A stretch of 64,000 nt of DNA from Hominisplanchenecus faecis (lineage in GTDB: Bacteria; Bacillota; Clostridia; Lachnospirales; Lachnospiraceae): positions 1 through 64,000 of the forward strand of contig NZ_JAJEQE010000002.1 in NCBI RefSeq assembly GCF_020687205.1, written 5' to 3'. Positions 3,974-19,966 of this stretch are shown in pieces. The translations under genes and the position numbers were made by a program. Below the pieces are notes generated by a model, which saw only the letters and a program-made list of their open reading frames with translations, had not been told where the DNA came from and searched no databases. The number at the start of each line of letters is the position of its first letter. Within the stretch, counting starts at the first letter, position 1.

Positions 3974-4717
3974 ATGGAAAACGGGGCAAAAACAGGATAT
4001 GTCCATTCGCTGGAAAGCTTTGGATCGGTTGACGGTCCAGGTGTGCGTTATGTGATCTTCTTAAGCGGCTGTGCGATGCGATGCCAGTTCTGCCATAATC
4101 CGGATACCTGGAATATGACAGCCGGCAAAAGCTACACAGCTGATGCCCTTCTGAAACAGGCAGTAAAATACCGCACTTATTGGGGAAATAAGGGCGGTAT
4201 TACTGTCAGTGGAGGAGAACCACTGCTTCAGATTGATTTTCTGATCGAACTGTTTCGCAAGGCAAAAGAGATGGGGATCCACACAACGCTGGATACGAGC
4301 GGCAATCCTTACACGGAAAAAGAGCCATTCTATTCAAAATGGCTGGAACTGATGAAATATACCGATCTGATTCTTCTGGATATCAAGCATATTGATGAGC
4401 AGGAGCATATCAAACTGACCGGTCAGACCAACAAAAATATTCTGGCTATGGCAGAAAAGTTATCGGATATGGGAAAACCGGTATGGATCCGTCATGTACT
4501 GGTTCCGGAGCGGAGTGACCGTGATGATTACTTGCATCGGCTGGCAGATTTTATTCACACGCTGAAAAATGTGGAGCGTGTGGAAGTACTGCCATACCAT
4601 ACGCTGGGTGTATTTAAATGGGAAAATTTAGGGATTCCATATCAGCTTGAAGGGATCAATCCGCCAAGTGCAGAACGGATCAAGAATGCAGAAGAGATTC
4701 TGGCGTTCAGGAAATAG
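3974..4717 (+). CDS. pflA: Pyruvate formate-lyase activating enzyme (radical SAM)
   Basis: This 247-residue radical SAM enzyme installs the glycyl radical on PflB. The 4Fe-4S/SAM motif is C33-x3-C37-x2-C40 (CAMRCQFCHNPDTW), followed by GGITVSGGEPLLQ (SAM contact) and the TLDTSGN strand; LLDIKHID is also typical of PflA. The N-terminus HSLESFGSVDGPGVR matches the family, so the start is ATG 3974. There is no Shine-Dalgarno sequence; the start lies one base after the pflB stop, which implies translational coupling. A longer in-frame reading from 3935 would overlap pflB and is not preferred. Confidence 0.96.
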   Translation: MENGAKTGYVHSLESFGSVDGPGVRYVIFLSGCAMRCQFCHNPDTWNMTAGKSYTADALLKQAVKYRTYWGNKGGITVSGGEPLLQIDFLIELFRKAKEMGIHTTLDTSGNPYTEKEPFYSKWLELMKYTDLILLDIKHIDEQEHIKLTGQTNKNILAMAEKLSDMGKPVWIRHVLVPERSDRDDYLHRLADFIHTLKNVERVEVLPYHTLGVFKWENLGIPYQLEGINPPSAERIKNAEEILAFRK

Positions 4718-4737: not shown

Positions 4738-4806
4738 ATGTGCAAAGGAACAATGCCCTGAAGGACACATAAAAGTGTCTTCCTGGGCATTGTTCCTTTT
4801 GCACAT
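4738..4806. terminator. Long bidirectional terminator hairpin after pflBA
   Basis: ATGTGCAAAGGAACAATGCCC (4738-4758) pairs almost perfectly with the arm at 4785-4806, with a second stem GAAGGACAC/GTGTCTTCC inside. Roughly 30 paired bases makes it much longer than usual. It separates pflA from the convergent gene at 4940-5839 and could serve both strands. Confidence 0.75.
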
Positions 4807-4884: not shown

Positions 4885-4938
4885 TTACTCCACAACCGGT
4901 GGCACAAAATGTTCGATTGCATTTCGCAGTTTCGGATG
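4885..4938 (-). pseudogene. Leftover C-terminal end of an XRE-family regulator paralogue
   Basis: On the minus strand this stretch reads HPKLRNAIEHFVPPVVE then stop, the same as the last 17 residues before the final Pro of the regulator at 5920-7659. Over 52 bases the two copies differ at about five positions. The fragment begins one base after the stop codon of the metallo-beta-lactamase-fold gene, so the rest of the paralogue is missing and that gene abuts the break. This is direct evidence of a past duplication or recombination with loss of one copy. Confidence 0.8.
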
Positions 4939-4939
4939 A

Positions 4940-5839
4940 TTAGCGGATGGTAACGCTGCGTTTTCGGCTGTTATACGTATAGACTTTTTCACCCAGATCT
5001 TTTAAAACTTTTATATTTCTTTTTACAGTATCTCGTTTTCTAAGAAAAGAGGGAGCATCGATAAAAGTGACCTTTGCATGGATATATTTGAAAAAGGATT
5101 CTCTCTTGTCGTTGTTTCCATGATGCGGAGCCTGAAGATACGTTGCCTTCAGACGTTTGTGATAAGTTTTGATAAGTCTTTTGCCAATGCTGCTCACAAT
5201 ATCTCCGGTGAAAAGCATACTTGTTTTTTTACCGGAAATTTTAAAAACCAGAGAAGAACCATTGCAGATATCTTTGGTCGTATCTTTCAGATTACGGCTG
5301 TAACCATTAAAAAATTCAAAATCCAGACCGGCGAAGGAAAAAGTATCATCTGCTTTTGCCCACAGGATTTTTGGATTTTTTCTTACAAGACGTGAAAACT
5401 TCTGAAATACCTGATATTCATCCCATGGATATTGATAGTGTCTGTAACGGGAAGCGTTGATCTTTGGTGCAATGACCTGATCAATCTGTATGCCGTCCGG
5501 ATTGGCAAAAATCTGATTAAAAGCTCCGACATGATCCGGATGCGGATGTGTGATAATCCAGAGATTTACCCTTCCGCCCAGTTTCTTTATGGTATCGCGT
5601 ACTCTTTTCGCATCATAATCCCATCCACCGTCAATTACGATCAGTTTGCCGTTGCTTCCTTTGATCGTATAAAACATGGACTGCTGAAAATCAGAATCAG
5701 ATCCATATTGTGTGACTTTCCAGGAAGATGCATAAACTTTTTGTCCGCAGCCAAGGTGCAGGCTGAAGAATAAAAAGAGTCCGGCGAAAAAGAAAAACAA
5801 AAAAGTATGTGAGTGGAAAACCGGTGTTTTATTTCTCAT
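4940..5839 (-). CDS. Secreted metallo-beta-lactamase-fold hydrolase (ComEC C-terminal-like)
   Basis: The 299-residue protein has an N-terminal hydrophobic segment (about residues 12-34, LFFFFAGLFLFFSL) with a nearby Cys, suggesting a signal anchor or lipoprotein, then an MBL fold. HPHPDH (about residue 98) is the HxHxDH metal motif; VIDGGWD, FTGDI and QAPHHGNND supply the other family landmarks. This arrangement is that of the stand-alone proteins related to the ComEC C-terminal domain, which has nuclease activity in some members; substrate unknown. Start is supported by AGGAGGTATCCCAATG. Its 3' end abuts the remnant regulator tail at 4885-4938, and the intact regulator lies 80 bases upstream. 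Confidence 0.85.
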   Translation of the reverse strand: MRNKTPVFHSHTFLFFFFAGLFLFFSLHLGCGQKVYASSWKVTQYGSDSDFQQSMFYTIKGSNGKLIVIDGGWDYDAKRVRDTIKKLGGRVNLWIITHPHPDHVGAFNQIFANPDGIQIDQVIAPKINASRYRHYQYPWDEYQVFQKFSRLVRKNPKILWAKADDTFSFAGLDFEFFNGYSRNLKDTTKDICNGSSLVFKISGKKTSMLFTGDIVSSIGKRLIKTYHKRLKATYLQAPHHGNNDKRESFFKYIHAKVTFIDAPSFLRKRDTVKRNIKVLKDLGEKVYTYNSRKRSVTIR

Positions 5840-5919
5840 TGGGATACCTCCTTTTCTGATACCTTCATCATACTGTTTTTCTTTCTGTTTTGCAAGAAAT
5901 GATCAAGGAAATTTTATTT

Positions 5920-7659
5920 TTAGGGTTCCACAACCGGAGGTACAAAATGTTCGATTGCATTTCGCAGTTTTGGGTGGTGGATCACAAAATGGATTGCCGG
6001 AGCGTTTCCCTTGGAGATCATTGCCCATTTTCCTTCATGAAGGATGATCTGAAGGTTCTGGAATGGGTTTGAGGCGGAAGAATGTAAAACATAGTTTTTA
6101 TGTAATTTTGCAAAGTCTTCCGACTGTTTTTTATGTTCCAGATATTCTTCATAATTATAGTGAAGATCATCTGTGTGAAACATGCCGGATAAGGGAAGAG
6201 AAGGTGAATGAAGAGCAAAATCTTTTTCGGAGAGAAATGGGATTTCATCTTCGATTACATCGTGTTCCAGAATTTGTTCTGCCATATCACGCTGACTTTG
6301 TGCAAAGGTAAGGATTTCAGTCTGATCTTTTGCAGAGAGTCGGCGTTTTTGTAAAATACATTTCAGATAATCAGGATCCAGCGTATAAAGAGGAGGGGAA
6401 GAGAGAATGCTTCGCCGTTTTCCGGGCGTGGAAGCATCAAAGAGCAGAAAAGCATTCAGTTTTCCGAGGCTGTCTTCCCGGTAAATATCCATAAGAGGAA
6501 GTGCGTTCTGTAAAAGGACTTCCGCACGTCTTGTATAATAAGCAATATCTTCTTTTGTCTTGGAAAGATAATAACGCCCTTCGCTGTGATGACCCGAAAT
6601 TGCTTCACCGGAAAGTACGGCAGCTCCGGATACTTTCAGGAAATGATGAAAAACATTGCCGGGATCGGATTTCAGATAATAAGGAGAAATCTGTCCGGTC
6701 ATGTACATGGGAATCCAGCTTTCCAGTCCGAGCATCATTTCTTCAAAAGAACGGTCAAGATGATGAATCTGATCCAGATGCAGACCTTTTTTCAGGAGCA
6801 GAGCCATACCAAACATCCATTTCTTTGGAAAATCGGGGTCTTTTGCCATTTCTGTTATGGGCATATCACTGTACATGATAACTGGTCTTTTTGATCTGGA
6901 AAGGACGGTTGCCTTTAAAAAATGAAGTTCACTTGCCATCATTTCTTCCAGTCCATAGTAATATTTTGCCGTCGGAAACTGAAACGGAACACCCGGAACT
7001 TTCATTTCATCGAAATGGATGACTTTTATATATTCATTCAGATCAAATTCATCCAGTTTGGATAAAAATTTGGAAAGACTGTCTTCGCCCTTTTTCCTGT
7101 TCTGACTGTTTAAAAGCCACAGGCGGATTTTTTCGCAGACGACAGAAGTATCGTTTAGTTCTTCTTCCGAACATTCCAGAAGCTGTGCCAGCACATAAAG
7201 ATCATCGCCCTGGCAGTATTTACGTGCCACATAAGCGGAAACAGCCAGGACAAAGCCTTCCGGATCTGCAGGAGAGCGGCTGCCGTTTCGAAAGCGGAAA
7301 ATCGTTGAGGTATCATAACTGATGTGCTGGCACAGTTTTGTGATATTTAGATTCAGTACGGAAATCAGCGTGTTAAAATTCTGACGCAGTTGCTCTTTGT
7401 CCGTGGACTTCATGTCTGAACAGGCGAGAAATTGCTGACGGATCTCTGTTTTTGTGAGATTTGTGCCTTCTCTTTTTAATGCGAGCGTTTCTAGGGCAGA
7501 GCAGAGTTGTTCAAAAGTTTCAGAATGAATGTCCAAAGTACGTTCGCCGGAACGGTAGCGGCTGAGGGCAGCGGCAGAAATTCCGGAAACAGTGCAGAGT
7601 TCTTTGGCAGTACAGTTCACAGCTTTCATATATTGATTCAACTGTTCATAAAAACGCAT
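5920..7659 (-). CDS. Large XRE-type helix-turn-helix regulator, unknown function
   Basis: The 579-residue product starts at the ATG at 7659 (MRFYEQLNQY), preceded by AGAGGTG; seven residues upstream are open but lack a ribosome binding site. Residues about 10-55 form a Cro/C1-type helix-turn-helix (ELCTVSGISAAALSRYRSGERT), and a second similar segment near residue 105-140 (LCQHISYDTSTIFRFRNGSRSP) looks like another HTH copy. The remaining about 400 residues are not recognised; they hold no clear membrane segments. It is transcribed away from the surface protein gene at 7948. A fragment of a paralogue's 3' end lies at 4885-4938. Function as a transcriptional regulator is inferred from the HTH only. 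Confidence 0.75.
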   Translation of the reverse strand: MRFYEQLNQYMKAVNCTAKELCTVSGISAAALSRYRSGERTLDIHSETFEQLCSALETLALKREGTNLTKTEIRQQFLACSDMKSTDKEQLRQNFNTLISVLNLNITKLCQHISYDTSTIFRFRNGSRSPADPEGFVLAVSAYVARKYCQGDDLYVLAQLLECSEEELNDTSVVCEKIRLWLLNSQNRKKGEDSLSKFLSKLDEFDLNEYIKVIHFDEMKVPGVPFQFPTAKYYYGLEEMMASELHFLKATVLSRSKRPVIMYSDMPITEMAKDPDFPKKWMFGMALLLKKGLHLDQIHHLDRSFEEMMLGLESWIPMYMTGQISPYYLKSDPGNVFHHFLKVSGAAVLSGEAISGHHSEGRYYLSKTKEDIAYYTRRAEVLLQNALPLMDIYREDSLGKLNAFLLFDASTPGKRRSILSSPPLYTLDPDYLKCILQKRRLSAKDQTEILTFAQSQRDMAEQILEHDVIEDEIPFLSEKDFALHSPSLPLSGMFHTDDLHYNYEEYLEHKKQSEDFAKLHKNYVLHSSASNPFQNLQIILHEGKWAMISKGNAPAIHFVIHHPKLRNAIEHFVPPVVEP

Positions 7660-7775
7660 AGAAGCACCTCTTTTCATCAAATTTGCAAAAACATCAATGA
7701 AGCGTATTTTGCGTTCGGTTGCTATGTGTTTATTGTATCGGAGATTTGCAAAAAAGGAAAGATGAAAATATCAAA

Positions 7776-7840
7776 ATTCCCGATTTGGCAATTGACGTTT
7801 CGGGAATCTTACTTGTCAAATAAGCAGAATCTTTTATACT
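7776..7840 (+). promoter_or_regulatory. Inverted repeat and promoter upstream of the surface protein gene
   Basis: ATTCCCGA (7776-7783) and TCGGGAAT (7800-7807) form an 8-base inverted repeat with a 16-base gap. Directly downstream lie TTGTCA (7813-7818), 16 bases, TATACT (7835-7840), a plausible promoter for the gene at 7948. ATTTGCAAAAA occurs at 7681 and 7744 in the same gap. The inverted repeat may be an operator, perhaps for the divergent XRE protein; that is a guess. Confidence 0.5.
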
Positions 7841-7947
7841 GAGAGTAAGAGAGAACAGGTTGATTTTATACAAAATGTTTATATCTGGACAGAGCGAAAA
7901 GAAGGGGGGAGAAAGAGGTTCTGACAGATCAGGAAAGGAGAAATTTT

Positions 7948-9771
7948 ATGAGGAAAATAAAGGAGAAACACATGGATATAACTTGGAAACGAAAATGGAT
8001 ATTCTGGCTGCTGCTGGCAGTGATGCTGCTGTTTTTACCGGGAAAGACATTTGCAGCAGAAAAAGAAAGCAGAGAAGCAGAGGATTCATACATTTATCAT
8101 ACGGCTTTTGATGCAAAGGCGAGCCTTAAGATCCGTCATATGAAAGATTACGGAGTACTGGATTATGAAGAAACGGTGACAGTGGAAGATTCCTGTGATT
8201 ATCTGGACGGAGATGAAAATCTGGATGAAATCCAGGCGAAAATTACAGCCTATGATGAGAAAGTTCAAAAAGTGTGTGAAGGAATGCAGGTTGTTTCCGG
8301 TACGGACACACGAGGTATTGACGGCGATACGATTAACATTGAATATGAAGATACGGAAGAAAACGGACAGACCGTTACCACCAGACATTTTTATCAGACT
8401 TACAAGATCCGGACAGACTGGGTACTGGAAAAGATGGAGATTTCGGATGTGAATATTGTGAACAGCACACTTTCCTGTTATGCCGGTGATGATCCAAAAG
8501 CAACCGCCCAAAAAGGTGACAGTGATGCTTCAAAATATGAAATAGCCTATGAACGCTGGGAAAAGCTGGAAACAAATGCACAGGGATACCTAGAACCAGT
8601 AGCGTTCTGGTATTCTGATGAGAGCCAGTATATTGCTGCAACTCCAAAATTTACCACTTTCGAATCCGGTGCAATGTATATGTATTCTGTCTTTTTAAAA
8701 ACGGTAGATGGGAATGAATTTTCAAAAGACCTGTCGCTGACATTAAATGGAAAACAGATTGACAGTCGGACCATTATTGTGGGAAATAACGGGACAACCT
8801 GTTTTGCAGATGCCCTGTACAGTGCCCGGTCCGAAGAAAAAGTAACGCCGAAGCCAATTGAAGTGATTGAAGTAAATGGAGTGGATTTTTCTTTCAAAGC
8901 GGGTGATGCTCCGAGATTCACCGGAAGTGTGTCGGAAGATGCTCTGTACTGTATCGATCACGAACGATGGAACAATTTAAAAGAAGGATGGACTTCCTCG
9001 GACTACTGGAATGGCAAGTATGGTGATTTTGACGGAAGCTGGGGTATGCCGCTCACGAAATTCAAAGCACTGGAAACCTATTATTATGGAATTTGCCTGA
9101 GCCTGTCAGCCAGAGGATATCGGGAAGGATATTATTTTGATAAAAACATAACGAAGTTGAAGATCAATGGTCGGCTGATCCCGATACCGGATCCGGAAAA
9201 CAGTTTCGATGAAACAGGGGAAATGGTATGGTTTAGCGGCATCAAAAGTATTGTGATCCCGCCGCAGGGCAGCACAGCAAATGGAAGTACAACAAATCCT
9301 TCGGATACATCACAGACATTTCCGAAAATCGGAACATGGGTCAAAACAAAGAATGCACTTTATAAAGTGACAAAAGCCGATGCAACCGGATGTACCGTAA
9401 CACTGGTAAAACCGCACAGGAAAACAAACAGTACCTTTACTGTACCGGCAACCATCAAAAGTGAGGATGGGAAAATCACATTCCGTGTAACGGAGATCAG
9501 TAAAAATGCATTTAAAAATCATGTGAAACTGAAAAAAGTCACCATCGGAAAAAATGTCAGCAAGATCGGTGCGAATGCTTTTTCCGGTTGTAAAAAACTG
9601 AAGAATATTAAGATCACATCAACACAGCTCACAAAAAAATCTATAGGAAAGAATGTGTTTAAGGGCATCGATAAAAAGGCAGTTATCAAAGTACCGAAAA
9701 AGAAACTGAAAGCCTATAAGAATATCCTCAAAGGAAAAGGACAGGCAAAAAGCGTGAAGATTAAGAAGTAA
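7948..9771 (+). CDS. Secreted surface protein with C-terminal leucine-rich (BspA-like) module
   Basis: The 607-residue product has a basic N-terminus and a signal peptide (IFWLLLAVMLLFLPGKTFAA, cleavage near residue 38). The middle (about 40-450) is unrecognised and acidic. From about residue 465 a module follows with FRVTEISKNAFKN, KKVTIGKNVSKIGANAFSGC and a Lys-rich end, typical of LRR_5/BspA-type repeats. The same module ends the GH84 enzyme at 48875-53737. Two starts each have a Shine-Dalgarno sequence: ATG 7948 (AAAGGAG, chosen) and ATG 7972 (AAAGGAG), the latter giving a more ordinary signal peptide. There is no LPXTG motif. It probably sits on the cell surface; ligand unknown. Confidence 0.82.
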   Translation: MRKIKEKHMDITWKRKWIFWLLLAVMLLFLPGKTFAAEKESREAEDSYIYHTAFDAKASLKIRHMKDYGVLDYEETVTVEDSCDYLDGDENLDEIQAKITAYDEKVQKVCEGMQVVSGTDTRGIDGDTINIEYEDTEENGQTVTTRHFYQTYKIRTDWVLEKMEISDVNIVNSTLSCYAGDDPKATAQKGDSDASKYEIAYERWEKLETNAQGYLEPVAFWYSDESQYIAATPKFTTFESGAMYMYSVFLKTVDGNEFSKDLSLTLNGKQIDSRTIIVGNNGTTCFADALYSARSEEKVTPKPIEVIEVNGVDFSFKAGDAPRFTGSVSEDALYCIDHERWNNLKEGWTSSDYWNGKYGDFDGSWGMPLTKFKALETYYYGICLSLSARGYREGYYFDKNITKLKINGRLIPIPDPENSFDETGEMVWFSGIKSIVIPPQGSTANGSTTNPSDTSQTFPKIGTWVKTKNALYKVTKADATGCTVTLVKPHRKTNSTFTVPATIKSEDGKITFRVTEISKNAFKNHVKLKKVTIGKNVSKIGANAFSGCKKLKNIKITSTQLTKKSIGKNVFKGIDKKAVIKVPKKKLKAYKNILKGKGQAKSVKIKK

Positions 9772-9802
9772 GCAAAAAGAACAAAATAAAATAAAATACA
9801 TG

Positions 9803-9828
9803 CAGCGGGTGGAGAAATCCATCCGCTG
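9803..9828 (+). terminator. Hairpin after the surface protein gene
   Basis: CAGCGGGTGGA pairs with TCCATCCGCTG around a GAAA loop, 31 bases after the stop codon. The following T-tract is poor (TTACATCTT), so termination may be weak or factor-assisted. Confidence 0.5.
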
Positions 9829-9835
9829 TTACATC

Positions 9836-9864
9836 TTGTGAAAGAACAAAATTGATGCTAAGAT
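9836..9864 (+). promoter_or_regulatory. Probable promoter reading into the palindromic element and MNT gene
   Basis: TTGTGA (9836-9841), 17 bases, TAAGAT (9859-9864) with an extended TG at 9856-9857. The transcript would start just before the palindromic element at 9873 and continue into the nucleotidyltransferase gene. Confidence 0.5.
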
Positions 9865-9872
9865 GAAGTAAG

Positions 9873-10066
9873 GATGTTGGGGTCAAAAGACCCAAACTAT
9901 GATGCCTACGGATTGTTCCGTGCTTCGCACTCCTACAATCCTCTCCAATATTCGCATATCGTGGGATTATCATCCCACTTTTATGCTCATATCGGGGCGG
10001 GTCCCAAGGTCTTTCATCCACTTATGAGCAAGCTCATGTGGATTTAGACCTTTTGACCCTGGCATC
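9873..10066. mobile_element. MITE-like element with terminal inverted repeats
   Basis: The 194-base element is bounded by 17-base terminal inverted repeats (9873-9889 and 10050-10066) that match at 14 positions and share GGGTCAAAAG perfectly. Inside are further perfect palindromes, including GTGGGAT/ATCCCAC near 9960-9980 and a nested stem with ATGAGC/GCTCAT flanked by ATCCAC/GTGGAT. It has no coding capacity. A single related end (15 of 17 positions) lies in the argG leader at 15205-15221. This region fills the gap between the surface protein gene and the MNT gene. No flanking target duplication is obvious. Confidence 0.6.
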
Positions 10067-10136
10067 AAGTAAGATATATATCAAAGAATCCTTAAAGATT
10101 GTAAGCGTGAATGGAAAGAAACGGAGGTGTGATTTT

Positions 10137-10478
10137 ATGTGTACAAAAAATGATCTGAATTATATTTTAAAAAAAATAGTGCAAATATATCGTTCGGTAT
10201 ATGGAGAAAAACTTGTTCAGGTTATTTTGTATGGATCTTATGCCAGAGGTGACTATGATAGTGATTCAGATATTGATATTGTTGCGATTGTTCATGGAGA
10301 CAGAAAAATATTGCAGGAGCAATTAAAGAAAGTATGGGATTCTTCCTGCGAACTGGAACTTGAATATGAAACAATACTTTCACCAACGGTAATTCCATAT
10401 GAGGAATTCCAACGATATCAGAAGGAGCTTCCGTACTATCGCAATATTGCACAGGAAGGAGTGATCGTGGTTGCCTGA
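10137..10478 (+). CDS. MNT-type nucleotidyltransferase (minimal NTase, orphan antitoxin-like)
   Basis: The 113-residue protein has the DNA polymerase beta-like NTase signature GSYARGDYDSDSDIDI (G-S-x9-DxD) at about residue 37-52. This size and motif fit the MNT partner of HEPN/MNT toxin-antitoxin pairs, in which MNT AMPylates the HEPN RNase. The start is ATG 10137, eight bases after GGAGGT; a longer frame from 10038 lies in the palindromic element and is rejected. No intact HEPN gene follows; only a 27-codon frame overlaps the stop (10471-10554). It may be a decayed or solitary antitoxin. Confidence 0.82.
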   Translation: MCTKNDLNYILKKIVQIYRSVYGEKLVQVILYGSYARGDYDSDSDIDIVAIVHGDRKILQEQLKKVWDSSCELELEYETILSPTVIPYEEFQRYQKELPYYRNIAQEGVIVVA

Positions 10479-10554
10479 TAGTCGAAAAGAATTGAACAGT
10501 ATTTGCAAAACAAAATATAGTAGAGTTACATTCAGAAAGGATAGATTACCATGA
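10471..10554 (+). pseudogene. Possible remnant of a HEPN partner gene
   Basis: A frame beginning TTG at 10471 overlaps the MNT stop by eight bases and reads LPDSRKELNSICKTKY and on to a stop at 10552-10554 overlapping the next gene's start. HEPN genes commonly overlap their MNT partner in this way and start with a short polar run. Only the position and about ten residues support this, so it is a weak inference; it could equally be chance. Confidence 0.25.
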
Positions 10555-11054
10555 AAACACTGATCGTAGTAGATATGCAGAATGATTTTATTGACGGTTC
10601 ATTAGGAACGAAAGAAGCACAGGCAATCGTGCCGAATGTAAAGAAAAAAATCCAGGAATACAAAAATCGAGGGGATGAGATCATCTTTACGAGAGATACG
10701 CACCAGAGTGATTATCTGGACACACCGGAGGGCAAAAAGCTTCTGGTTGTGCACTGCATCGAGGGAACAAAGGGATGGCAGATCGCAGATGGTCTGGAAG
10801 TAGAAGGCTGTACTTACATTGATAAGCCGACTTTCGGATGGACGCACTGGAATGAAAGAACGTTTCAGGAGATTGAGATGGTCGGACTTTGCACGGATAT
10901 CTGCGTGGTATCGAATGCTCTGATCCTCAAAGCAACGTTTCCATCTGTGGAGATTACGGTGGATGCGAGTTGCTGTGCGGGAGTGACACCTCAGACACAT
11001 CTGGCAGCTCTTGAGACTATGAAGATGTGTCAGATCCTTGTGACAGGAGAATAA
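10551..11054 (+). CDS. Isochorismatase-family cysteine hydrolase (nicotinamidase-like)
   Basis: The 167-residue protein opens with LIVVDMQNDFIDGSL, giving the catalytic Asp9, and has DKPTFGWTHW (family Lys near residue 85) and the nucleophile region VGLCTDICVVSNA (Cys about 113). These form the Asp-Lys-Cys triad of the isochorismatase/nicotinamidase superfamily. RDTHQSDYLDT is the metal-proximal loop found in nicotinamidases, although the typical DxHxxxH triplet is only partly preserved (DTHQSDY). Nicotinamide deamidation is possible but not shown. The start is ATG with AGAAAGGA upstream. The gene appears to stand alone between the MNT locus and enolase. Confidence 0.88.
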   Translation: MKTLIVVDMQNDFIDGSLGTKEAQAIVPNVKKKIQEYKNRGDEIIFTRDTHQSDYLDTPEGKKLLVVHCIEGTKGWQIADGLEVEGCTYIDKPTFGWTHWNERTFQEIEMVGLCTDICVVSNALILKATFPSVEITVDASCCAGVTPQTHLAALETMKMCQILVTGE

Positions 11055-11143
11055 AGTATGGCAGAAGTTGATCTGCAGCGATGACAGTGAATGATAACCT
11101 ATGAAATTGATAAAACTTTCTCAATCTAAGGAAGAAGTTCGTC

Positions 11144-12594
<1,451 letters not shown>

Positions 12595-12617
12595 TAAGAG
12601 ATCAACAAATCACACTT

Positions 12618-12794
12618 CAAGAATGCCTCTGGCATTCTTGCTGCGAGGTGCACGTCATGCATTGCATGACATATTCTTCTGTGCACCTCTGCAATCCGCC
12701 GGAGGCTATATCAGATGGGAGATTGAATCCCGCCACTGATACAAGTTTGTTGCTCGCCGCCTACAGAGGTGGGAGTCATCTCACATCTGATATA
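12618..12794. repeat. Highly palindromic repeat element A
   Basis: Three structures follow each other in 177 bases. CAAGAATGCC/GGCATTCTTG (12618-12640) is a perfect 10-base stem with a 3-base loop. GAGGTGCACGTCATGC (12645-12660) pairs completely with GCATGAC (12664-12670) plus GTGCACCTC (12681-12689). TATATCAGATG (12707-12717) is inverted at 12784-12794. The stems lack T-tracts, so these are not ordinary terminators. Shorter relatives occur at 13731-13753 and 15411-15454. The element fills the gap between enolase and the convergent LysR gene. Confidence 0.7.
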
Positions 12795-12809
12795 CATACT
12801 TCCTGTAAT

Positions 12810-13700
12810 CTACATGTTTGCCGTCTGCAAAGCATCCATAAGCTTGCGGACGGCAATGCTTTTTGGCCGGTTTTTGTCCCAGATCAGGCAAATTTCGCGT
12901 TCCGGCATTCTTGAGGTGAGGTGGAGCTGTACCACTTCGCCTTTTTTAATGGCTTCTTTTGCCAGTGCCTCCGGATAAAATCCGATTCCGAGGTTGTGCC
13001 TGATCATCGGCAGGATCTGATCTGCGGTAGCGGCTTCGATATCCGGATAGAACGGCAGATCATGCTGCAGAAAGTAATTGATATGCATTTCTCTTGTTCC
13101 AGTATTTTGTCCGAGAGAAATAAACGGAATGTCCGTAAGCTCTGAGAGATGATGGATTTTAGAGGAAAAATCAGCGTATTTTGGCCCGGCGAGCAGAATC
13201 TCACGGAAGGAAGCAAGCGTATAATGACGCATGGATTTTTTCAGCTTGAGCGGTGTTGTGACAACAGAAATATCGGCCAGTCCGTTTTCCAGTGCCTGAA
13301 TGGACTGAGGGGTGGAGAAATTGGAAATTTTCAGGCGGACTCCCGGATACTGTGCGTGAAAGGTCTCCAGTCGGTCAAGCAGCAGCAGTCGCAGAGCTGT
13401 CTCGCTTGCACCGATCGTGATCAGACCGCTCTCCAGACTTTTGTCTTTTTTCAGCTCGGATTCTGCAGTAGAGAGCTGCTCGTAAGCGATCGCGACATGC
13501 TGGAATAGTTTTTCTCCCTCAGGTGTCAGTGTTACTCCACGGTTGGAGCGTACAAACAGTTTACATTCCAGTTCATTCTCCAGAATGTTCATGCAGCGGG
13601 TGATATTTGGCTGATTGTTATTTAAAATCTCGGCAGCTTTTGTAAAACTTTTATATTGGGCTACAAAATAAAAAAAACGATAATATTCAAAACTGACCAT
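12810..13700 (-). CDS. LysR family transcriptional regulator
   Basis: The 296-residue protein has the N-terminal winged HTH of LysR regulators: FYFVAQYKSFTKAAEILNNN, then a recognition helix (PNITRCMNILENEL) and LFVRSNRGVTLTPEG, over residues 4-62. The substrate-binding domain begins near residue 90 (LITIGASETALRLLL). The start at 13700 is fixed by AGGAGGTTTGC before ATG; the 32 upstream in-frame codons run through the repeat at 13731-13753 and are rejected. It is convergent with enolase and lies upstream of argG on the same strand side, but nothing in the sequence ties it to either. Effector unknown. Confidence 0.93.
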   Translation of the reverse strand: MVSFEYYRFFYFVAQYKSFTKAAEILNNNQPNITRCMNILENELECKLFVRSNRGVTLTPEGEKLFQHVAIAYEQLSTAESELKKDKSLESGLITIGASETALRLLLLDRLETFHAQYPGVRLKISNFSTPQSIQALENGLADISVVTTPLKLKKSMRHYTLASFREILLAGPKYADFSSKIHHLSELTDIPFISLGQNTGTREMHINYFLQHDLPFYPDIEAATADQILPMIRHNLGIGFYPEALAKEAIKKGEVVQLHLTSRMPEREICLIWDKNRPKSIAVRKLMDALQTANM

Positions 13701-13730
13701 GCAAACCTCCTGTTTATTTTGACGTTCAAA

Positions 13731-13753
13731 AATGCCTCTGCAATCCGCCGGAT
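13731..13753. repeat. Short relative of repeat A
   Basis: AATGCCTCTG joined directly to CAATCCGCCGGA. The block 13735-13752 matches 12686-12703 of element A exactly over 18 bases, and AATGCCTCTG also matches its first hairpin. It looks like an internally deleted copy. Confidence 0.55.
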
Positions 13754-13782
13754 CTGTTCTGTTTTGGGATAATCTGAAATCT

Positions 13783-13813
13783 GAAAAAGGAAGCACTTTT
13801 GCAGTGCTCCCTT
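13783..13813 (-). terminator. Intrinsic terminator of argG
   Basis: On the minus strand GGGAGCACT-gcaaa-AGTGCTTCC is followed by a T-run. It lies about 65 bases past the argG stop. Confidence 0.8.
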
Positions 13814-13877
13814 ATATTCAGGTTACTTGTGAAGTCACAGAACATCGCCGGACTTCGGATGAAAAATATTTACAGAA

Positions 13878-15110
13878 TTATTCACCAAGGTTTTTCTTTT
13901 CTACTTCAGCGAGCATCATAGCACGTACTTTCAGAGGCAGACCAAACAGGGTGATAAATCCACTTGCATCATTGTGATCGTACATATCACCGGTTGTGAA
14001 GGATGCTAAAGATTCATTGTACAGGCTGTATGGAGAAGTTGTGCCGGCTTTGATGATGTTTCCTTTGTAAAGTTTGAATTTAACTTCACCGGTTACATAT
14101 TTCTGTGTTACTTCAACGAAAGCCTGGATTGCCTCACGCAGCGGTGTGAACCATTTTCCTTCGTATACAACCTGAGCAAACTGGCTGCCGAGTTTTTTCT
14201 TTGTTTCCATGGTTTCACGGTCCAGAGTCAGTTCTTCGAGCTGTTCATGGGCTGCCATCAGGATGGTTCCGCCCGGTGTCTCATATACACCACGGGATTT
14301 CATACCAACAACACGGTTTTCTACGATATCTACGATACCGATACCATGTTTACCTCCAAGAGCGTTCAGCTCTGTGATGATCTCAGAAACTTTCATGGCT
14401 TTTCCGTTCAGTGTTTTCGGAACCCCCTGTTCAAAAGTCATGGTAACATATTCACCTTTTTCCGGAGCCTGTTCCGGTGTCACGCCAAGCACCAGCATGT
14501 TTTCGAAGTTTGGCTCGTTTGCCGGATCTTCCAGCTCCAGACCTTCGTGGCTGATGTGCCATAAGTTACGGTCACGGCTGTAGCTGTGGCTGTGGTCGAA
14601 CGGCAGGTCGATACCGTGTTTTTTACAGTATTCGATCTCGTCTTCACGGGACTGGATGGTCCATACATCGGTCATACGCCATGGAGCGATGATCTTCAGA
14701 TCCGGAGCCAGTGCCTTGATTGCCAGTTCGAAACGAATCTGGTCATTACCTTTACCGGTAGCACCGTGGCAGATGGTAGTAGCACCTTCTTTACGTGCGA
14801 TCTCAACCAGTTTCTTTGCGATAACCGGACGTGCCATGGAAGTACCAAGCAGGTATTTGTGCTCATAAACTGCACCGGCTTTTACGCAAGGCATGATGAA
14901 ATCGTCACAGAATTCATCAATGATATTTTCAATATATAATTTAGAAGCACCGGACAGTTTTGCTCTCTCTTCCAGACCATCCAGCTCGTTACCCTGTCCG
15001 CAGTCGATGCAGCAGCAGATAACTTCATAGTCAAAGGTTTCCTTTAACCAAGGGATCAGTGTGGTGGTATCGAGACCGCCTGAATATGCCAGAACTACTT
15101 TTTCTTTCAT
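13878..15110 (-). CDS. argG: Argininosuccinate synthase
   Basis: The 410-residue enzyme joins citrulline and aspartate with ATP, the penultimate step of arginine synthesis. The P-loop-like pyrophosphatase motif [11 protein letters not shown] is at residues 8-18; [27 protein letters not shown] and [13 protein letters not shown] are family signatures. Length is normal. The start has AGGAGGAATACATATC before ATG. It is divergent from argCJBD, with which it shares a 408-base control region, and ends in its own terminator. argH and argF are not in the window. Confidence 0.97.
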
Positions 15111-15162
15111 GATATGTATTCCTCCTGAAATTTATGATCATTTTGTAAGTCAAAGACAAAAG

Positions 15163-15221
15163 AGCCATAAAACCACTCTTGTGCAAGTACATCGTGGTTT
15201 TTGGCTTTCGACCCTGGTATC
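15163..15221 (-). promoter_or_regulatory. argG leader hairpin, possible attenuator, next to a solo MITE-type end
   Basis: In the argG leader (minus strand) AGCCAAAAACCAC pairs with GTGGTTTTATGGCT (15163-15206) and is followed by CTTTTGTCTTTG, a T-rich stretch. It could terminate early transcripts. The first transcribed bases (15205-15221) match the ends of the element at 9873-10066 in 15 of 17 positions. No T-box sequence or arginine-rich leader peptide is present. Confidence 0.4.
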
Positions 15222-15225
15222 ATAC

Positions 15226-15254
15226 ACTATACAACAGTTATCATAATTATGCAA
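15226..15254 (-). promoter_or_regulatory. argG promoter
   Basis: Minus strand TTGCAT (15249-15254), 17 bases, TATAGT (15226-15231). The leader to the argG ATG is about 110 bases. Confidence 0.65.
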
Positions 15255-15290
15255 GTGAAAAAACGAAAAAGTTGTAAAAACAGCTGTAAA

Positions 15291-15327
15291 ATGAATAATA
15301 TACATTGCGTATGAATAAAAATACAAT
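15291..15327. promoter_or_regulatory. Tandem ARG boxes (ArgR/AhrC operators)
   Basis: ATGAATAATATACATTG (15291-15307) and TATGAATAAAAATACAAT (15310-15327) lie side by side. The second fits the Bacillus AhrC consensus CATGAATAAAAATKCAAK at all but the first base. They sit between the divergent argG and argC promoters and could control both. Binding by an arginine repressor is inferred; the regulator gene is not in the window. Confidence 0.75.
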
Positions 15328-15346
15328 AAAAATACAAAGAAAACTC

Positions 15347-15375
15347 TTTACTTATAAAGAAAACTGGTATATGAT
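15347..15375 (+). promoter_or_regulatory. argCJBD promoter
   Basis: TTTACT (15347-15352), 17 bases, TATGAT (15370-15375), 19 bases downstream of the second ARG box. The leader then crosses an ATTCGC/GCGAAT stem (15388-15402) and a repeat-A relative. Confidence 0.55.
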
Positions 15376-15410
15376 AAGAAAGATTTCATTCGCACAGCGA
15401 ATTTTTATGA

Positions 15411-15454
15411 ATCTGCCGGAGACTGCATCAGATGGGCGGCACCTCACATTTGAC
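15411..15454. repeat. Relative of repeat A in the argC leader
   Basis: ATCTGCCGGAGACTGCATCAGATGGG resembles 12694-12719 of element A (about 80 percent by eye), and CTCACATTTGACA resembles its right end (12780-12792), with the middle missing. It looks like a deletion derivative inserted in the argC leader. Confidence 0.5.
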
Positions 15455-15518
15455 AGAAAAGGAAAAGAAGAATGATCCGGACAGAAAAGATATATTAGGT
15501 TGAAAGGAGAATGTTGAT

Positions 15519-16559
15519 ATGATAAAAGCCGGAATAATAGGAGCAACCGGATATGCAGGAGGCGAGCTTGTCCGTCTTCTCCTTAACCATAAAGAAGCAG
15601 AGATTGCGTGGTATGGTTCCAGAAGTTATGTGGATCAGAGATACAGCAGTGTTTACCAGAATATGTTCCAGATCGTGGATGCAAAATGTCTGGATGACAA
15701 TATGGAGCAGCTGGCAAAAGAGGTAGATGTGATTTTCACAGCAACACCGCAGGGGTTGTGTGCATCTCTTATAAATGAAGGGATTTTAAGTCAGGCAAAA
15801 GTGATCGATCTAAGTGCGGACTTCCGTATCAAAGACCGGAAGACTTATGAGCAGTGGTATAATCTGGAACACAAAGCACCGCAGTTTATTGAGGAAGCTG
15901 TTTACGGACTGTGTGAGATCAACCGGGAGGATATCAAAAAGGCAAGACTGATCGCAAATCCGGGATGCTATCCGACATGCAGCACCCTGTCCATTTATCC
16001 ATTATTAAAGGAAGGCATTATTGATGGAAATACCGTTATCATTGATGCTAAATCCGGTACTTCCGGAGCAGGACGCAGTGCCAAGGTTGCAAACCTTTAC
16101 TGTGAAGTCAATGAGAACATCAAAGCATACGGTGTTGCAACACACAGACACACACCGGAGATCGAAGAGCAGTTAGGTTATGCCGCCGGTTATCCGATCC
16201 ATATTAATTTTACACCGCATCTGGTTCCGATGAACCGCGGTATTCTGGTTACTGCTTATGCATCTCTGAAAAAAGAGGTGACTTACGAAGAAGTTAAGGC
16301 GATCTATGATGCTTATTACGGAAAAGAACAGTTTGTACGTGTTCTGGATAAGGATGTCTGCCCGGAGACGAAGTGGGTAGAAGGAAGCAATTATGTGGAT
16401 GTAAACTTCAAACTGGATCCGAGAACAAACCGTGTGATCATGATGGGGGCAATGGACAATCTGGTGAAAGGTGCAGCCGGTCAGGCCGTGCAGAATATGA
16501 ACCTGATGTTTGGATTTGCCGAGAACGAAGGCCTTCAGGGCGTACCAATGTTCCCATAA
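15519..16559 (+). CDS. argC: N-acetyl-gamma-glutamyl-phosphate reductase
   Basis: The 346-residue NADPH-dependent enzyme reduces N-acetylglutamyl phosphate to the semialdehyde. It has the N-terminal nucleotide-binding GIIGATGYAGGELVRLL, the catalytic cysteine in IANPGCYPTCS (about residue 149), and a conserved His in HRHTPEIEEQL. The start has AAAGGAG upstream. It is first in argCJBD, 24 bases before argJ. Confidence 0.97.
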   Translation: MIKAGIIGATGYAGGELVRLLLNHKEAEIAWYGSRSYVDQRYSSVYQNMFQIVDAKCLDDNMEQLAKEVDVIFTATPQGLCASLINEGILSQAKVIDLSADFRIKDRKTYEQWYNLEHKAPQFIEEAVYGLCEINREDIKKARLIANPGCYPTCSTLSIYPLLKEGIIDGNTVIIDAKSGTSGAGRSAKVANLYCEVNENIKAYGVATHRHTPEIEEQLGYAAGYPIHINFTPHLVPMNRGILVTAYASLKKEVTYEEVKAIYDAYYGKEQFVRVLDKDVCPETKWVEGSNYVDVNFKLDPRTNRVIMMGAMDNLVKGAAGQAVQNMNLMFGFAENEGLQGVPMFP

Positions 16560-16583
16560 AACAGAGAAAGGTCGTGAGCATAG

Positions 16584-17807
16584 ATGAAGATAATAGATGG
16601 AGGTGTAACCGCTGCAAAAGGATTTAAAGCAGCCGGTATGCATGCAGGTATCAAAAAAGGTACAAAAAAAGATATGGCAATGATCGTAAGCAGTGCACCA
16701 TGTATGGCAGCCGGAACGTTTACGACAAACCTTGTAAAAGCCGCACCGGTAAAATGGGATCAGCATGTAGTATACGAACATGGAGAGGCGAGAGCTGTTG
16801 TGGTAAACAGCGGTATCGCAAACGCCTGCACCGGAGCAGAAGGATATGGCTACTGTGAAGAGACTGCAAAAGCGGCAGCAGAAGCACTCGGTATCGACAA
16901 GGATGAGGTTCTGGTAGCATCTACCGGTGTGATCGGAAAACAGCTGCCAATCGATACGATCAAAAAAGGCGTGAAGGATCTTTCCGGACTGCTTCTGGAT
17001 ACCAGAGAAGCAGCAACACTGGCAGCAGAATCGATCATGACAACGGATACGGTAAAAAAAGAGGTTGCCGTTGAAGTTGAGATTGGCGGTAAGACGGTAA
17101 CGATCGGCGGTATGTGCAAAGGTTCCGGTATGATCCATCCGAATATGTGCACGATGCTGAGCTTCCTCATGACAGATGCAGCTATTTCAAAAGAAATGCT
17201 TCAGAAGGCATTGAGTGCAGATGTCGATGATACCTACAATATGATTTCTGTTGACGGAGATACTTCCACAAATGATACCGTTCTGCTGCTGGCAAACGGA
17301 CTGGCAGAGAATCCGGAAATTACAGAGGAAGGCGAAGATTATCAGACATTTGCCAGGGCACTGCACTATATCAACGAGACGCTCGCAAAGAAAATGGCAG
17401 GGGACGGCGAAGGTGCCACTGCATTGTTTGAGACAAAAGTGATCGGAGCACAGTCAAAAGAACAGGCAAAGATTCTGGCAAAATCCGTTATTTGTTCAAA
17501 CCTTACCAAAGCGGCTATTTTCGGACATGATGCAAACTGGGGACGTATCCTCTGTGCCATGGGTTATTCCGGAGCTAAGTTTGATCCGGAAAAAGTAGAT
17601 CTGTATTTTGAAAGTGCAGCAGGTAAGCTGAAGATCATCGAAAACGGTGTGGCACTTGATTACAGCGAAGAAGAAGCGACAAAGGTACTCTCAGAAAAAG
17701 CAGTGACGGCTGTTGCTGACATCAAAATGGGAGAGGCATCCGCATCTGCCTGGGGTTGTGATCTGACTTACGATTATGTAAAGATCAATGCCGATTACCG
17801 CTCTTAA
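16584..17807 (+). CDS. argJ: Bifunctional ornithine acetyltransferase / N-acetylglutamate synthase
   Basis: The 407-residue ArgJ recycles the acetyl group from N-acetylornithine to glutamate. GGMCKGSGMIHPNMCTML contains the autocleavage site: the Thr of the NMCTML motif becomes the N-terminal nucleophile of the beta chain (about residue 189). NSGIANACTGAEG and FGHDANWGRIL are family signatures. Whether it is mono- or bifunctional cannot be decided; no argA or argE is in the window, and presence of argJ fits the cyclic pathway. The stop region carries a TACCGCT/AGCGGTA inverted repeat, and the 85-base gap to argB holds a GCATC/GATGC stem. Confidence 0.96.
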   Translation: MKIIDGGVTAAKGFKAAGMHAGIKKGTKKDMAMIVSSAPCMAAGTFTTNLVKAAPVKWDQHVVYEHGEARAVVVNSGIANACTGAEGYGYCEETAKAAAEALGIDKDEVLVASTGVIGKQLPIDTIKKGVKDLSGLLLDTREAATLAAESIMTTDTVKKEVAVEVEIGGKTVTIGGMCKGSGMIHPNMCTMLSFLMTDAAISKEMLQKALSADVDDTYNMISVDGDTSTNDTVLLLANGLAENPEITEEGEDYQTFARALHYINETLAKKMAGDGEGATALFETKVIGAQSKEQAKILAKSVICSNLTKAAIFGHDANWGRILCAMGYSGAKFDPEKVDLYFESAAGKLKIIENGVALDYSEEEATKVLSEKAVTAVADIKMGEASASAWGCDLTYDYVKINADYRS

Positions 17808-17892
17808 GCGGTAAGAGCTGCTTTGTGGCAGAGCAATTTACAGGCATCTGTCCGGATGCCGGAAGTATGGATAGAAACTGGAGGAAAAAACA

Positions 17893-18792
17893 ATGGATAC
17901 AATGCAGGATCTGCTTCAGAAAGCCAGTGTGCTCAATGAAGCGTTACCTTATATACGGAAATTCAGCGGCAAGACCATCGTTGTAAAATACGGCGGAAGT
18001 GCCATGGTAGAACATGAACTGAAGAAAAACGTCATTCGTGACGTAGCACTTCTGAAACTGGTCGGATTTCGCCCGATCATCGTGCACGGTGGCGGAAAAG
18101 AAATCACAAAATGGACAGGCAAAGTCGGCATTGAGACCAAATTTATCAACGGACTGCGTGTGACGGATAAAGACACCATGGAAGTGGCTGAGATGGTCTT
18201 AAATAAGATCAACAAAGGATTGGTGTCCATGATGGAGAAAGTCGGAGTCAAAGCGGTTGGTATCAGCGGAAAAGACGGCTCCGTTCTGCGTGTTAAGAAG
18301 AAACTCTCCAAAGGCGAAGATATCGGTTTTGTAGGCGAAGTGACAAAAGTCAATACCGAGCTTTTAAATACACTGCTGGACAATGATTTTGTCCCGGTGA
18401 TCTGCCCGATCGGTTCCGATGATGAGTATCATTCTTATAATATCAATGCAGACGATGCAGCATGTGCGATTGCAACGGCAGTCGGAGCATCCAAGCTGGT
18501 ATTTTTAACGGATATCGAGGGTGTATACCGTGATCCGCAGGACAAATCCACACTGATCTCCGAACTGAGTATTCCGGAAGCAGAAGAACTGCTCGGCAGC
18601 GGAAATATCGGTGGCGGCATGCTCCCGAAGATCCAGAACTGTGTCGATGCGATCAAGTCCGGTGTTTCCAGAGTACATATCCTGGACGGAAGGATCCCGC
18701 ACTGCCTGCTGTTGGAGTTCTATACCAACAAAGGTATCGGTACTGCGATTATCGGGGATGAGGAGGAACGTTTTTACAATGAAAATGAATGA
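17893..18792 (+). CDS. argB: Acetylglutamate kinase
   Basis: The 299-residue amino acid kinase phosphorylates N-acetylglutamate. It shows the nucleotide-binding [12 protein letters not shown], the substrate motif [13 protein letters not shown], and [10 protein letters not shown] near residue 207. A Lys-rich N-terminal helix (residues 1-25) precedes the core; such an extension is linked to arginine-sensitive hexameric forms, so feedback inhibition is plausible. The start follows GGAGG. Its last 14 bases overlap argD. Confidence 0.97.
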
Positions 18793-19966
18793 ATATATGG
18801 AGAGAACGGAACAGGTGGTTCTGCACACCTATAACCGTTTCCCGGTTGTTTTTGAAAAAGGAGAAGGCGTACATCTTTATGATACCGAAGGAAAGGAATA
18901 TCTGGATTTCGGTGCCGGAATTGCGGTGTTTGCACTTGGCTATCACTATGCGGACTACGATCAGGCTTTAAAAGATCAGATCGACAAAGTGATCCATACC
19001 TCCAATCTTTTCTACAATGTGCCGATGATGGAAGCAGCAGAAAAACTGGTAAAGGCAAGTGGCATGAGCAAAGTATTCTTTACCAACAGCGGTACGGAGG
19101 CGATTGAAGGTGCGATCAAAGCCGCACGTAAATATGCATGGAACAAAGACCATGCAACGGATCACGAGATCATTGCCATGAACCATTCCTTCCACGGAAG
19201 AAGCGTCGGAGCACTTTCCGTTACCGGAAACCCGCATTATCAGGAAGCGTTCAAACCGCTGATGGGCGGCGTGAAATTTGCAGATTACAATGATCTGGAC
19301 AGTGTAAAAGCTCAGATCACAGACAAAACCTGTGCGATTATCATGGAAACCCTTCAGGGCGAAGGCGGCATTTATCCGATGGAAGAGAGCTTCTTAAAAG
19401 GTGTTAAAGAAATCTGTGAAGAAAAAGATATTCTTCTGATCCTCGATGAAATCCAGTGTGGTATGGGACGTACCGGAAGCATGTTTGCATGGCAGCAGTA
19501 CGGCGTGATGCCGGATATCATGACCTGTGCAAAGGCACTGGGATGCGGCGTGCCGGTCGGAGCGTTTGTCTTAAACGAAAAGACTGCAAAAGCCTCTTTA
19601 GTTCCGGGAGATCACGGTACAACTTACGGCGGAAATCCCTTCGCCTGTGCAGCGGTTTCCAAAGTGTTTGATCTGTTTGAAGAACATGACATCGTCGGTC
19701 ATGTAAGAAAGACAGCTCCGTATCTGGAAAAGAAACTGGATGAACTGGTAGAAAAACATGACTGCTTTACCGCACGCCGCGGAAAAGGATTCATGCAGGG
19801 ACTGGTTGTGAGCGGCAGACCGGTCGGCGAACTTGTCAAAGCAGCTCTGGCAAATGGTCTGATTGTGCTTTCCGCAGGAAGTGATGTACTGCGTCTGGTG
19901 CCTCCGCTTGTGATCACCGAGAAAGACATCGACGAGATGGTTGAAAAACTGGAAGCGGTTTTATAA
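18779..19966 (+). CDS. argD: Acetylornithine aminotransferase
   Basis: The 395-residue PLP enzyme of class III forms N-acetylornithine from the semialdehyde. The N-terminus ([18 protein letters not shown]) and [32 protein letters not shown] and [14 protein letters not shown] (the last with the PLP Lys near residue 244) are signatures. The start is ATG 18779, after GAGGAGGAA, overlapping the end of argB; the reading frame continues upstream inside argB but that part is not coding. It ends at a terminator. Confidence 0.96.

Follow-up and report, generated by a model that had tools for sequence, protein, structure and literature searches.

In the 64,000-nt stretch of the Hominisplanchenecus faecis genome analysed here (contig NZ_JAJEQE010000002.1, positions 1 to 64,000; the window), a gene for a large XRE-type regulator is followed by a gene for a metallo-beta-lactamase (MBL)-fold protein and then by a detached copy of the last 17 regulator codons. 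On computational evidence, we propose that this detached tail is the scar of an insertion, that the regulator activates genes of secreted surface proteins through a conserved palindrome, and that the MBL gene is not its partner. We give this joint reading a probability of about 60%. The scar is genuine, and as a trace of recombination it is nothing unusual. The system of regulator, operator and surface proteins is conserved and apparently new to the literature: no paper describing the regulator or the operator was found in a search that covered few of the subscription journals.

An earlier note on this DNA had reported that the 3' end of the regulator gene (5926-5978) recurs at 4887-4938 in the same frame up to a stop codon. 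Our comparison bore this out: positions 4889-4938 and 5927-5976 form an ungapped direct repeat of 50 nt with 46/50 identical nucleotides and a spacing of 1038. The other direct repeats of at least 25 nt in the 14 kb compared are shorter and at most 82% alike, which rules out a chance origin. The second copy lies within the intact regulator gene on the minus strand and encodes the last helix of the C-terminal domain (helix 570-577 in the model). The first copy belongs to an orphan 3' end of a regulator-family gene (4885-4938, minus strand) that consists of 17 codons and the stop codon TAA. The minus-strand translation of either copy is HPKLRNAIEHFVPPVVE. The tail ends in VVE with an in-frame TAA at 4887-4885, and the intact regulator is one codon longer (VVEP, TAA at 5920-5922). 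Since relatives show both VE and VEP directly before the stop, the stop of the tail is a natural stop of the family. When the whole 3.27-Mb assembly was searched in six frames with the regulator, only the gene itself and the tail were returned; the tail matched residues 567-585 (89%, E 2.4e-4). The tail peptide is the conserved C-terminus of the regulator family (consensus IHFVI.HPKLR.AIENF.PP) and corresponds to the last helix of the predicted fold. All four mismatches between the repeat copies (4/4) fall on third positions and are synonymous; the probability that four random substitutions are all silent is 0.004-0.009. The family C-terminus and the all-synonymous differences support the earlier suggestion that the tail represents the 3' end of another regulator copy or allele. 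The identity is bounded on one side by the coding end and on the other by the MBL stop (TAA, 4942-4940), and the break does fall one base from this stop, as had been noted.

Because identity stops at the stop codon and the mismatches are all synonymous, two diverged alleles or paralogues of the gene end are a more likely source of the repeat than a fresh 50-bp duplication. Alternatively, a simple duplication could have been followed by four silent changes, all of them in the intact copy. We propose that a resident regulator allele formerly ended just before the terminator of pflA. The pflA gene (3974-4717, plus strand), encoding the pyruvate formate-lyase activating enzyme (TIGR02493, 315.7 bits at a cut-off of 231.75), is convergent with the cluster. 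Between pflA and the orphan tail lies a near-perfect hairpin (4744-4799), an inverted repeat that is terminator-like on the minus strand and is a probable bidirectional terminator. The incoming DNA would have carried the 3' end of a related regulator followed by the MBL gene. It would have been joined by homologous recombination on the regulator side and by an illegitimate junction that linked the MBL stop codon to codon -17 of the resident gene. The old 17-codon tail, the displaced 3' end of the resident allele, would have been left behind as a non-functional remnant. We infer the order of these events from comparison genomes that all belong to other species. In one distant relative (L042) the regulator is directly convergent with pflA and no MBL gene is present; this arrangement is close to an empty site, and at only 43% identity it may be a coincidence. 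The order regulator then MBL gene was not found in the surveyed regulator loci, and the proposed donor is hypothetical. The pflA neighbourhoods of 29 relatives contained neither the regulator tail nor the MBL gene. The sister species was rejected as an empty site, its neighbourhood on the DegV side being unrelated and free of pflA and the regulator. In that genome (L161, G001:C78, reversed, 6590-19292), a small HTH-type gene and then a gene for a 3773-aa secreted protein follow the conserved DegV gene and replace the pfl/MBL/regulator/LRR order.

The earlier note had allowed for either the collapse of a tandem array or an insertion where a resident regulator gene ended. If the locus was once ordered regulator-MBL-regulator, a deletion would have removed the downstream copy except for its last 17 codons. 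A tandem origin likewise predicts two diverged coding copies, hence synonymous-only differences, and would leave the tail in matching orientation and frame. However, it takes two events as well as a deletion whose end coincides exactly with the MBL stop codon. Further orphan tails, sought in 53 relatives, were not seen. There was also no adjacent second regulator in the surveyed loci and no second copy in the own genome, and we consider this origin possible but doubtful. Comparison with relatives from other species, along the lines of the check proposed earlier, revealed no tandem copies and the single distant near-empty arrangement of L042. Insertion at the resident regulator end fits slightly better than tandem collapse, and neither is proven. 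Displacement of 3' ends by homology-facilitated illegitimate recombination has been put forward to explain effector-immunity arrays and the tails of Rhs genes (PMC5361080), and here too an orphan 3' gene remnant lies downstream of a new insert. On our reading, the locus would share with Rhs C-terminal displacement and the V. cholerae T6SS effector-immunity arrays (PMC5361080) the homologous anchor, the illegitimate join and the downstream shift of the old 3' end. Unlike in those arrays, only 17 codons are left, there is no immunity gene, and the displaced gene is a regulator whose 3' end is conserved, not variable.

The MBL gene (4940-5839, minus strand) encodes a 299-aa protein with an N-terminal hydrophobic signal. 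The protein belongs to the metallo-beta-lactamase superfamily by its match to PF00753 (E 1.3e-10, 42 bits, cut-off 22.7) and by its HxHxDH motif, present as HPHPDH. It shares the fold, this motif and the signal-like N-terminus with ComEC-like secreted MBL-fold proteins, but it is a stand-alone protein and scores far below the NCBIfam cut-offs. Many relatives terminate at the identical residue, so we rejected the idea that the junction had created the C-terminus, which is a natural one. The GC content of the gene is 39% compared to 45% for the window, a weak difference that we did not use as evidence of foreign origin. In viral contigs and plasmids, nothing was found that would point to a phage or plasmid origin of the MBL gene or the regulator. 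Gene 3' ends, including those of tRNA genes, are common integration targets. A 1-kb insert flanked by direct repeats at the 3' end of a gene might therefore be a small MBL element that restored the regulator 3' end on site-specific integration, with the 50-bp repeats as attachment sites. Yet the insert has no integrase, no similar insert occurs at any other regulator 3' end surveyed, and, at the thresholds applied, collections of viruses and plasmids yielded no MBL relatives. In addition, the repeats differ at synonymous sites only, and the protein family explains their conservation. Integration of this kind is very unlikely.

The MBL gene and the regulator lie on the same strand, 80 bp apart, and are possibly co-transcribed; the 80-nt spacer (5840-5919) contains only a chance-level promoter-like match for the MBL gene (TTGCAA-17-TATGAT). 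The earlier note had suggested that the two genes form an exchangeable functional cassette. This suggestion failed: no MBL homologue was present at any of the 46 regulator-homologue loci (0/46), searched up to 8 kb on each side. The best MBL relatives are found in other genomes, distant from regulators, and across the sampled family, regulator and MBL gene are mostly found in separate genomes. No operator was found at the MBL gene, and the conserved, recurrent partner of the regulator is a divergent secreted protein on the opposite side. An exchangeable cassette now seems hardly credible, and the sequence comparisons do not support the MBL gene as the partner of the regulator.

The real partners of the regulator appear to be secreted surface-protein genes. 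In the window, the divergent partner (7966-9771, plus strand; alternative start ATG 7948) encodes a secreted BspA-type LRR_5 protein (PF13306, E 5e-13); the presence of a divergent secreted partner is conserved in relatives. The upstream gene is divergent from the regulator in 41 of 54 loci. In 33/54 its product has 200 aa or more and starts like a signal peptide, and the gene usually lies 120-270 bp away. The downstream neighbours are varied, and only 14 of 56 are of this signal type (Fisher p 2e-4 compared to the upstream side, for loci that are phylogenetically dependent and signal peptides called by a simple hydropathy rule). About 40% of the regulator loci have no recognisable divergent secreted gene. 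The divergent partners are mosaics of LRR_5/BspA, Flg_new, fn3, Big_2, dockerin, SLH or DUF4214 modules. The regulator and its partner also occur as a pair in Anaerobutyricum hallii, a commensal relative. Elsewhere in the window, positions 9900-10067 (minus strand) match the Clostridiales-1 RNA (RF01699, 150.7 bits), a multi-copy element with well over 10 close copies in the genome, several of them at contig ends. Positions 12616-12794 and 1-81 are dispersed repeats of about 180 and 80 nt with many genomic copies, and the ends 1-25 and 12667-12691 are inversely related.

A palindrome, TTTCCgaa-TGTCA-n-TGACA-ttcGGAAA, lies between the regulator and the divergent gene and is common to the 300 bp upstream of the regulators. 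By conservation and position, the four-part palindrome at 7775-7807 of the window (ATTCCCGAAACGTCAATTGCCAAATCGGGAAT on the minus strand) is the proposed operator. The pattern TTCC-N20-23-GGAA occurs in 17 of 55 upstream regions, compared to a mean of 0.7 and a maximum of 3 in shuffles. A richer scored operator exceeded 99% of the null in 27/55 regions, so that about half remained below this strict cut-off. Further loci carry TTACC/GGTAA or TTGCC/GGCAA variants, in which both outer arms change together. An operator profile was built from 26 sites, and its E-values are rough. With this profile, the own genome contains three strong operator sites (E 6e-6 to 1.3e-5), and the fourth-best match has an E-value of 0.16. 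One of them is the window site. The other two were outside the training set, and each is located 99 bp upstream of a secreted-protein gene. The site on contig C38 precedes the gene of a 1201-aa protein with LRR_5 and fn3, and the site on contig C14 precedes that of a 535-aa protein with Flg_new and fn3. Directly upstream of the putatively operator-controlled 535-aa gene lies the gene of a secreted 1062-aa protein that has four Shr-like heme/hemoglobin-interacting domains (L198:3634-6819). In genome G018, a large secreted protein is encoded about 100 bp after an untrained site, and in G380 a regulator of 31% identity and a divergent secreted protein have a site between them.

Among 397 family genomes, strong sites were present in 8 of the roughly 20 that have the regulator versus 6 of the roughly 377 that lack it. 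We took the operator-like scores in the six regulator-free genomes (E 2.6e-4 to 0.005) for background, and these sites had no consistent secreted gene at a fixed spacing nearby. No site passed E 5e-4 in 390 other genomes of the class. Two matches were not counted: C36:6304 of the own genome, which resembles a terminator between other genes, and the G018:C24 site, which is inside a gene. In G382, a strong operator (L242:2929-2960) is located about 130 bp downstream of the regulator 3' end, with no recognisable gene beyond it.

A TATAAT-like hexamer starts 27-29 nt past the operator edge, on the secreted-gene side, in 27 of 33 promoters. Other positions of the -10 hexamer account for at most 6 promoters, and shuffles for at most 7. 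In its similarity to TTGACA, the -35 region does not surpass shuffled sequence. The LRR promoter of the window does carry a -35-like TTGTCA: its promoter-like site TTGTCA-16-TATACT (7813-7840, plus strand) places the -10 hexamer 28 nt from the edge of the operator. Activation usually goes with a geometry in which the operator sits at a fixed distance immediately before a promoter that has a good -10 and lacks a -35. Because of the operator/-10 geometry alone, the regulator most likely activates rather than represses its targets, with repression as a conceivable alternative mode. Conservation and position of the palindrome suggest that the regulator would bind it about 28 bp upstream of the -10 boxes. 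It would activate the divergent LRR gene in cis and the two other genes in trans. A dimer of chains that each carry two HTHs, as predicted, would explain why the operator has four parts.

The regulator gene (5920-7680, minus strand) may start at TTG 7680 (586 aa) or at ATG 7659 (579 aa), and the ATG has the better ribosome site as judged by eye. The protein is a member of the XRE (Cro/C1) regulators, since its Cro/C1-type HTH (PF13443, HTH_26, residues 14-64) scores 28.7 bits, above the curated cut-off of 22. The AlphaFold2 models (pLDDT 83 and 86) contain two XRE-type HTHs (about residues 25-44 and 113-132) and a C-terminal domain that is PLD/TrmB-like. In Foldseek, the model of this domain matched polyphosphate kinase (E 8e-9), TrmBL2 (E 3e-6) and TrmB 2f5t (E 4e-3), and it also matched the PLD fold, with low to moderate TM-scores (about 0.42). 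No sequence match to the sensor part was found in the PDB. Because the PLD catalytic motif HxK(x)4D is absent in all aligned regulator members (28/28), we take the modelled C-terminal domain to be a ligand sensor as in TrmB. In three loci (L004 and L009 in G035, L076 in G320), shortened regulators lack residues about 145-408, and the HTH part is joined to the last third.

The regulator resembles TrmB and TrmBL2 in having an N-terminal DNA-binding part and, by a fold match with weak TM-scores, a predicted PLD-like effector-binding C-terminal domain. In contrast to these proteins, it is bacterial, and in both sequence and model it has two Cro/C1-type HTHs instead of the single N-terminal winged helix. 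With XRE regulators it shares the HTH_26 domain, a divergent neighbour and a palindromic operator between the two genes. It differs from them in its duplicated HTH, four-part operator and large PLD-like sensor part, as well as in a trans regulon of secreted modular proteins and activator-type spacing. It is rather probable, judging from the genome comparisons, that an undescribed family of dual-XRE, PLD-sensor activators controls a secreted adhesin-like regulon (LRR/BspA, fn3, Flg_new, dockerin, SLH) through a fixed-spacing palindrome in gut Clostridia and some Coriobacteria. The regulation of adhesin-like surface proteins in common gut bacteria is largely unknown, and the proposed control system is testable: it has a single regulator family, a single recognisable DNA signal and, in each genome, named targets. 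With the operator signal, co-regulated surface proteins could be predicted in genomes that lack annotation. If the proposal is true, the regulator family couples an intracellular ligand to the composition of the cell surface.
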